This document shows positions 50,130 through 51,913 of a stretch of DNA of 64,000 nt, one piece after another. Location: the NCBI GenBank assembly GCA_903830985.1, contig CAIKVZ010000033.1:1-64000 (forward strand), read 5' to 3'. The notes beneath the pieces were generated by a model that saw only the letters and a list, made by a program, of their open reading frames with translations, ran no database searches and was not told the origin of the DNA. Source of the DNA: an uncultured beta proteobacterium. GTDB taxonomy: Bacteria > Pseudomonadota > Gammaproteobacteria > Burkholderiales > Burkholderiaceae_C. Made by a program: the position numbers and the translations under genes. Position 1 is the stretch's first letter. Every line of letters begins with the position of its first letter.

Positions 50130-50143
50130 CGCCTGCTCAGGCG
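50130..50143. terminator. Small inverted repeat between sco and rpoH
   Basis: CGCCTG-CT-CAGGCG forms a perfect 6-bp stem at the convergent ends, overlapping the rpoH stop. The loop is too short and no T tract follows, so it is only a weak candidate. Confidence 0.25.
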
Positions 50144-51078
50144 TATTGCGCCAGGGTCTTCTTCATTTTCTTCATGGCCGCCACCTCGATCTGGCGGATG
50201 CGTTCGGCGCTCACGCCGTACACCGCAGCCAGTTCGTGCAAGGTCATGCCGCCGGAACCGTTGTCGTTCACCTTGAGCCAGCGTTCCTCGACAATGCGCC
50301 GGCTGCGCTCATCGAGTTCTCCCAGCGCCAGCGCGATGCCGTCGCTGGCCAGCATGTCGCGTTCATGGGATTCGATCACCGCCGTGGGTTCATGCCGGGC
50401 ATCGGCCAGGTAAGCAATCGGACCAAAGCCGTCCTCGCCGTCTTCGGTGGGACCGGGGTCGAGCATCACATCACCGCCTGACAAGCGGGTTTCCATCTCG
50501 ATCACGTCTTCGCGCTTGACCTTGAGATCCCGCGCCATGGAGGCGATCTCCGATTCGTTCAAAGTGTCGCGGTGCGTGGCTTCATGGCCCGCTGCGGCCT
50601 CGGCCTTGAAGCCCTGCTTCATGGATCGCAGATTGAAAAACAGCTTGCGCTGGGACTTGGTCGTGGCCACCTTGACCATGCGCCAGTTCTTCAGGATGTA
50701 TTCGTGAATTTCGGCCTTGATCCAGTGCAGCGCATAGCTCACGAGGCGCACGCCGTGGTCTGGATCGAAGCGGCGTACGGCCTTCATCAGGCCCACATTG
50801 CCCTCCTGGATCAGGTCGCCGTGCGGCAGGCCATAGCCCAGGTACTGGCGCGCCACGGACACCACCAGACGCAGGTGCGACAGCACCAGCTTGCCCGCGG
50901 CTTCCACGTCGTTGTCCGATCGCATCTTGCGCGCGAACTCTTGCTCCTGGTCCAGCGTCAGCATGGGCAAGCGGTTCACGGCCGAGATATAGGCGTCCAG
51001 ATTGCCCAGCGGCGGAACCAGCGCCCAGGGGTTGGCCACCGAGAGCGCGCTGGTTGGCGCGAGTGTGAGTTGTGACAT
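50137..51078 (-). CDS. rpoH: RNA polymerase heat-shock sigma factor RpoH
   Basis: This 313-residue sigma-70-family factor has region 2 as LRLVVSVARQYLGYGLPHGDLIQEGNVGLMKAVRRFDP. The RpoH box is the QRKLFFNLRSMKQGF segment. Region 4 is LHELAAVYGVSAERIRQIEVAAMKKMKKTL. It directs heat-shock transcription. GGAG precedes the ATG at 51078. The promoter carries a CIRCE element (separate entry), implying HrcA control of the sigma factor. Confidence 0.96.
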   Translation of the reverse strand: MSQLTLAPTSALSVANPWALVPPLGNLDAYISAVNRLPMLTLDQEQEFARKMRSDNDVEAAGKLVLSHLRLVVSVARQYLGYGLPHGDLIQEGNVGLMKAVRRFDPDHGVRLVSYALHWIKAEIHEYILKNWRMVKVATTKSQRKLFFNLRSMKQGFKAEAAAGHEATHRDTLNESEIASMARDLKVKREDVIEMETRLSGGDVMLDPGPTEDGEDGFGPIAYLADARHEPTAVIESHERDMLASDGIALALGELDERSRRIVEERWLKVNDNGSGGMTLHELAAVYGVSAERIRQIEVAAMKKMKKTLAQYA

Positions 51079-51173
51079 GCATGACTCCTTTTCTTGTCAG
51101 TTGTGGATGAGGCCGCCCGCTTGGCGAACTGGGCGGCGCTACACACCCCCCCAAAAAAATCTGCACCACGCCA

Positions 51174-51206
51174 AATGTTAGCACTCTCTTGATGAGAGTG
51201 CCAACA
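51174..51206 (-). promoter_or_regulatory. CIRCE element overlapping the rpoH promoter
   Basis: On the plus strand TTAGCACTC, nine bases, then GAGTGCCAA (51178-51204) match CIRCE (TTAGCACTC-N9-GAGTGCTAA) with one mismatch. On the minus strand the same bases contain TTGGCA and TAACAT 18 bp apart, good -35 and -10 elements. HrcA bound here would block the promoter. It lies about 100 bp before the rpoH start. Confidence 0.85.
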
Positions 51207-51358
51207 GCCCCGAAAAAACCCTGATGCAAGATCTGCTTGTGATCGGAATTGCAAGCTCAGGTTCCCTGGTTTTGATTTCAAATTTCTTTGTTGACAGGCA
51301 CGGATTCCCAGTATTCGGTAGAATGACGTTTTGTATCACTATCGCTGAAAGTAATCCC

Positions 51359-51913
51359 ATGTTGAAATACCTTTCATCCACCGAGCAATCCCGATTCGCC
51401 GATCTGCAGTCCAAATTGGCGCAATTGGTCATCAGCGACACCGAGCAGCAGGAACTGTCCACTTTGGTGAGCAAGGCGCAAAAATCCGCGGCCGAACGCG
51501 GCAAGGCGATCGAATCCGTGCGGCAATTGATTGCGGACAATGGAATCGAAATTCAATCCGTGTTCAGTGCCGAAGTTATTCAACGCGCCGCAAGCCAGAC
51601 GTCGACCCGTGGCGCGACAAAAAAGTCGAGCAGCAAGGTAAAAGCCGTCAAAGCCACGGCCAGAACCGAGGAAGTGCTGATTCAGGTCAAGCTTGACAAG
51701 AGCGCTGGCGCACCCAGTCGCTACAAGAAGGGGCAAAAACTGGGCAAGTTTGTGTCACGCAACTTCAAACAATTGGACAGCGGAAACCAACTGCTGGAAA
51801 ACCTGCTGCAATACGCCACGCCGCTGGGTAAAACTTATTTTGCCACGCCCGACGGACGCGCCGAACTGGAAGCATTTGCGCAATTCGTGCATCGGACCCC
51901 GGTCAATACCTGA
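51359..51913 (+). CDS. Lysine-rich hypothetical protein
   Basis: This 184-residue protein is not recognised. Residues 1-75 are helical and possibly coiled coil (FADLQSKLAQLVISDTEQQELSTLV). A flexible basic linker follows (TRGATKKSSSKVKAVKATAR). The C-terminal part (RYKKGQKLGKFVSRNFKQL) has a faint resemblance to the DNA-binding end of H-NS-like proteins. The upstream region is more AT-rich than the surroundings. A nucleoid-associated role is a guess. Confidence 0.6.
   Translation: MLKYLSSTEQSRFADLQSKLAQLVISDTEQQELSTLVSKAQKSAAERGKAIESVRQLIADNGIEIQSVFSAEVIQRAASQTSTRGATKKSSSKVKAVKATARTEEVLIQVKLDKSAGAPSRYKKGQKLGKFVSRNFKQLDSGNQLLENLLQYATPLGKTYFATPDGRAELEAFAQFVHRTPVNT

Follow-up and report, generated by a model that had tools for sequence, protein, structure and literature searches.

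The window, the whole 64,000-nucleotide stretch of DNA that we analyzed, carries on its minus strand a gene for the heat-shock sigma factor 32, rpoH (50137..51078; 313 aa), whose product scores 385.6 bits against the TIGR02392 profile (cut-off 323.1) and is by that measure an ordinary sigma32. A Shine-Dalgarno-like sequence, AAAAGGAG, is located on the same strand at 51085..51092, within a predicted 5' leader (51079..51168, minus strand) whose start we placed ~7 nt after the -10 hexamer described below. Folding of this leader gave a z-score of -0.64, which is nothing unusual, and an Rfam search of the window returned no match. On these two counts a leader RNA thermometer of the E. coli rpoH or ROSE type is unsupported, and elements of this kind within the coding region are still conceivable. 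A divergent 184-aa ORF (51359-51913) lies between rpoH and selD; it is lineage-restricted and has no NCBIfam match.

CIRCE operators were sought by using the inverted-repeat consensus TTAGCACTC-N9-GAGTGCTAA. The window carries TTAGCACTC-N9-GAGTGCCAA at 51178-51204 (full site TTAGCACTCTCTTGATGAGAGTGCCAA; no strand assigned), a predicted HrcA-binding site with one mismatch that was identified by pattern scan and by conservation in relatives. Nowhere else in the 64 kb is there a match with ≤3 mismatches; the number expected by chance is 0.01. Across all 349 contigs of the draft genome (5.46 Mb) there are two CIRCE elements with ≤3 mismatches: the one at rpoH and another, free of mismatches, at groESL. 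A reversed control pattern yielded no matches genome-wide. The first-pass annotation, which had reported a one-mismatch CIRCE at 51174-51206, was right about the element and, within a few bases, about its extent. It had also made its reading depend on the existence of an hrcA gene: one is present on another contig (PF01628, 217.5 bits, cut-off 22.2), where the ORF listing gives an intact open frame of 336 aa. The genome encodes rpoE as well.

Read towards rpoH on the minus strand, the operator coincides with a sigma70-type promoter, TTGGCA-N18-TAACAT with an extended -10 (TG), which is the only promoter-like match within 51000-51500. The left CIRCE arm would supply the -35 hexamer TTGGCA (51199..51204), the third base of which is the CIRCE mismatch. 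The right arm would supply the extended -10 TGC (51181..51183), with TG before the second hexamer, together with the TAA of the -10 hexamer TAACAT (51175..51180), the CAT of which falls outside CIRCE. The overlay of both hexamers that had been noticed at the outset was thus borne out (minus strand, 51204-51199 and 51180-51175), and placement of CIRCE over the -35 and extended -10 is conserved in relatives. Since the two arms double as promoter elements, binding by HrcA would exclude RNA polymerase from the site, and vice versa.

Comparison of rpoH and groESL operators from related species revealed letters that appear to serve the promoter. The first two -10 letters within the right arm (T and A) are invariant at rpoH (171/171 sites). 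The last T of the -10, outside CIRCE, is found at 166/171 rpoH sites versus 3/28 groESL sites (p = 1e-23), and a TTG variant of the left arm at 66/171 versus 3/28 (p = 0.005), p-values that overstate independence because the counted genomes are related. The TTG variant shifts the left arm towards TTGACA, and the window's single mismatch is of the same kind: judged by its letters, TTGGCA is an improved -35, and the mismatch makes better sense as belonging to that hexamer than as degeneration. Departures from consensus at rpoH are concentrated in the left arm (110, versus 36 in the right), which is not the case at groESL (7 versus 8). CIRCE positions 4-9 and 19-26 are nearly invariant at rpoH, such that the palindrome is conserved well beyond the promoter hexamers. 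The groESL operator of the same genome (L002) has the same consensus and presumably the same repressor, but there the CIRCE comes after a sigma32-like promoter (CTTGAAA...CCCTTATCA) and the T that completes the -10 is not conserved, whereas at rpoH the CIRCE itself constitutes the core of a sigma70-type promoter. Inspection by eye of a set of rpoH upstream sequences brought out no CTTGAAA site of the sigma32 type.

To examine conservation, we collected 80 rpoH loci from named Burkholderiales genomes ranging from Comamonadaceae to Burkholderiaceae and Oxalobacteraceae, 79 of which include upstream sequence. Each of these 79 carries a CIRCE with ≤2 mismatches upstream of rpoH, starting no more than 160 nt from the match start in 74 of them. 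The four congeners that were found (L288-L291) all retain it with 0-1 mismatches, and in many relatives CIRCE ends just 25-35 nt before the rpoH start codon. The window's upstream ORF recurs in only 1/80 loci, compared to 49/80 for the downstream neighbor sco1, indicating that CIRCE travels with rpoH and not with the upstream gene.

Presence of the operator depends on hrcA. In a set of 180 Burkholderiales genomes, hrcA is present in 161 and one or more CIRCE elements in 162; CIRCE is missing altogether from 16 of the 19 that lack hrcA. Upstream regions of rpoH could be taken from 140 of these genomes (131 with hrcA, 9 without): CIRCE with ≤4 mismatches occurs at rpoH in 130/131 of the former versus 0/9 of the latter, and 128 of the hrcA-bearing genomes, representing 39/39 families, have it with ≤3 mismatches. 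A class-wide sample of one genome per family gave a similar picture (43/46 with hrcA versus 3/14 without; Fisher p = 3e-7); shuffled sequence usually offers nothing better than 7-8 mismatches in 700 nt. The site that the first-pass annotation had proposed to look for in related genomes is therefore kept across the class. The three exceptions (G312, G301 and G336; loci L388, L389 and L392) keep CIRCE at rpoH with no detectable hrcA, which may have been missed in draft genomes or recently lost. Published gene tables, in which Neisseria is without HrcA and Laribacter and Chromobacterium have it (PMC3135505), agree with the distribution of hrcA found here.

In most relatives a second promoter type is woven into the same region. 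GAACYY or GAAACTT occurs ≤36 nt upstream of CIRCE in 91/130 genomes (~70%), versus 1-6 at shifted offsets. The strict sigmaE pattern GGAACTT-N16-TCNAA was found at 34/80 loci and in 22/128 genomes, counts that are too low because this pattern undercounts relative to the -35 alone at a fixed distance (91/130); the spacing to the TCNAA -10 is 16 nt in 30 of the 34 strict cases, and the strict pattern is absent from the reverse strand and from coding sequence (0 in each). Together with this -10, the GGAACTT-like -35 boxes that many relatives carry upstream of CIRCE match the sigmaE promoter type. In most families the sigmaE-type -10 uses the TC of CIRCE's left arm as its first letters or sits in the N9 spacer, so that HrcA would cover this -10 too; in Paraburkholderia-like loci it is positioned just upstream of CIRCE. 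Despite the presence of rpoE in its genome, the window has no sigmaE -35 in 51205-51260, nor do its congeners L288-L291, and GGAACTT-N16-TCNAA is absent from the window's rpoH site.

Four genomes without hrcA (G033, G302, G248 and G252; loci L125, L393, L318 and L319) still show the sigmaE -35 in register with a -10 that resembles the right arm, while the remainder of CIRCE has eroded: half a CIRCE survives as the rpoH -10 downstream of GGAACTT. Matches of this type (≤3 mismatches) are ~30 times commoner than in shuffles, a count that includes three genomes with largely intact CIRCE. We regard these half-sites as candidate operator fossils; the pattern is consistent with a history in which the repressor disappeared first and the operator then decayed, leaving in place the promoter inside it, which was still being used.

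Together, the sites, their overlap with the promoter, their conservation and their loss alongside hrcA lead us to infer that HrcA binds this operator and represses rpoH, that transcription starts from the embedded promoter, and that GroEL provides the signal. As a reading of genome sequences, repression of rpoH by HrcA, which the first-pass annotation had proposed, is well supported: hrcA is in the genome, the site is conserved class-wide, and it is lost or decayed in most genomes without hrcA. Very probably, the HrcA operator doubles as the rpoH core promoter, active HrcA holds rpoH down, and groESL and rpoH are derepressed together. HrcA requires GroEL to stay active in the species where this has been studied. 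Occupation of GroEL by unfolded proteins, on heating or when GroEL is short, would then deprive HrcA of its activity and release both CIRCE targets, groESL and rpoH, at the same time. In most relatives, the sigmaE-type promoter threaded through the same operator would allow envelope stress to feed rpoH as well. In a Variovorax transcriptome, rpoH and groEL/groES go up together (PMC5911999), which is consistent with joint derepression. Conversely, the response of Xylella to nitrogen starvation, in which hrcA rises >4-fold and rpoH (with or without a CIRCE) also rises 2-fold (review PMC11764788), counts against repression of rpoH by HrcA.

A different account, to which we attach some weight while considering it unlikely, is that HrcA does bind a genuine CIRCE here but that control of rpoH acts mostly at post-transcriptional stages, with HrcA only trimming its level and the heat signal bypassing HrcA. 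Control of E. coli sigma32 through translation, chaperone binding and proteolysis is established, and this precedent, like the ordinary sigma32 encoded in the window, favors such an account. However, the operator is retained nearly always across the class and is tied to hrcA, which argues for a substantial effect; moreover, the window's leader folds unremarkably, and the short distance between CIRCE and the start codon in many relatives leaves little untranslated sequence in which a leader thermometer could form. A mere resemblance to CIRCE, in what is really a sigma promoter or the site of another regulator, seems very improbable. The palindrome's coincidence with two promoter cores in relatives could suggest as much, but the symmetry of the two arms is conserved beyond the hexamers, and the site is lost along with hrcA even where the -10 survives. 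Least credible of all is control of the divergent ORF in place of rpoH. Although CIRCE does lie in the intergenic region shared by the two genes, ~155 nt from that ORF, synteny leads us to reject the divergent gene as its target: the ORF is present at a single one of the 80 loci, CIRCE at all those with upstream sequence, and the conserved -10 faces rpoH only.

The link between HrcA and rpoH is not wholly new, and the case in the window belongs to a type that had been predicted before. In Geobacter sulfurreducens, which belongs to a different lineage, a perfect CIRCE was placed upstream of rpoH at position -51 by comparative genomics in 2004 (PMC545781, Table 8); as far as the consulted parts of that paper go, its account is without promoter overlap, sigmaE analysis or class-wide conservation, and it refers to a survey from 2003 of HrcA regulons in beta-, gamma- and epsilon-proteobacteria. 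This prediction partly overtakes the first-pass view that the two regulatory layers are, as a rule, treated as parallel; the link which that view drew between them is supported. In Bordetella bronchiseptica, SigE transcribes rpoH (fam) in vitro (PMC3490749), an example of a beta-proteobacterial rpoH with a sigmaE promoter of the type that most relatives have ahead of CIRCE or inside it; that paper makes no mention of HrcA or CIRCE, and the window's genus differs in being without the sigmaE -35. In Agrobacterium both regulators coexist in one cell, as here, but RpoH and HrcA were assigned independent roles (Nakahigashi 1999, as cited in PMC11764788). A corresponding contrast is seen among 14 hrcA-bearing genomes from outside the class but within the phylum, most of them probably alpha-proteobacteria, where CIRCE occurs at the best-scoring rpoH in 0/14. 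Searches of the open-access literature turned up no experiment on HrcA at rpoH, nor a description of the nested promoters, the class-wide promoter-in-operator design, the sigmaE layer or the joint loss with hrcA.

Heat-shock control is usually pictured as the work of sigma32 (E. coli), of HrcA (Bacillus), or of both acting in parallel on chaperone genes. Almost all sampled beta- and gamma-proteobacteria with hrcA retain the CIRCE-promoter arrangement. We see an evenly balanced case for a broader proposal: that in the ancestor of beta- and gamma-proteobacteria sigma32 was a target of HrcA, with sigmaE and sigma70 promoters contained in one ~45 bp operator; that the E. coli scheme without HrcA is derived, arising after loss of hrcA stripped the operator; and that in HrcA-bearing species the sigma32 response is gated by GroEL supply through HrcA. 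If HrcA represses rpoH itself, most beta- and many gamma-proteobacteria would run a cascade in which GroEL titration releases HrcA and thereby groESL and sigma32, and hrcA mutants would be expected to show a raised general heat-shock response. Repression of rpoH by HrcA, if true, would explain the joint loss of operator and repressor, and the origin of the E. coli scheme would become testable by ordinary promoter work.

Some further features of these loci were recorded. The hrcA gene itself has no CIRCE, both sites of the genome being elsewhere; it (L001:1444-3382) is divergent from an NAD-kinase-like gene, with ~16 bp between the listed ORF starts. Lastly, the stretch from CIRCE to the rpoH start is ~60 nt longer in the window than in its congeners (99 versus 38-42 nt by the same measure), and 51079-51168 contains G7 and T7 homopolymers and a GC-rich inverted repeat (GCCGCCC...GGGCGGC).
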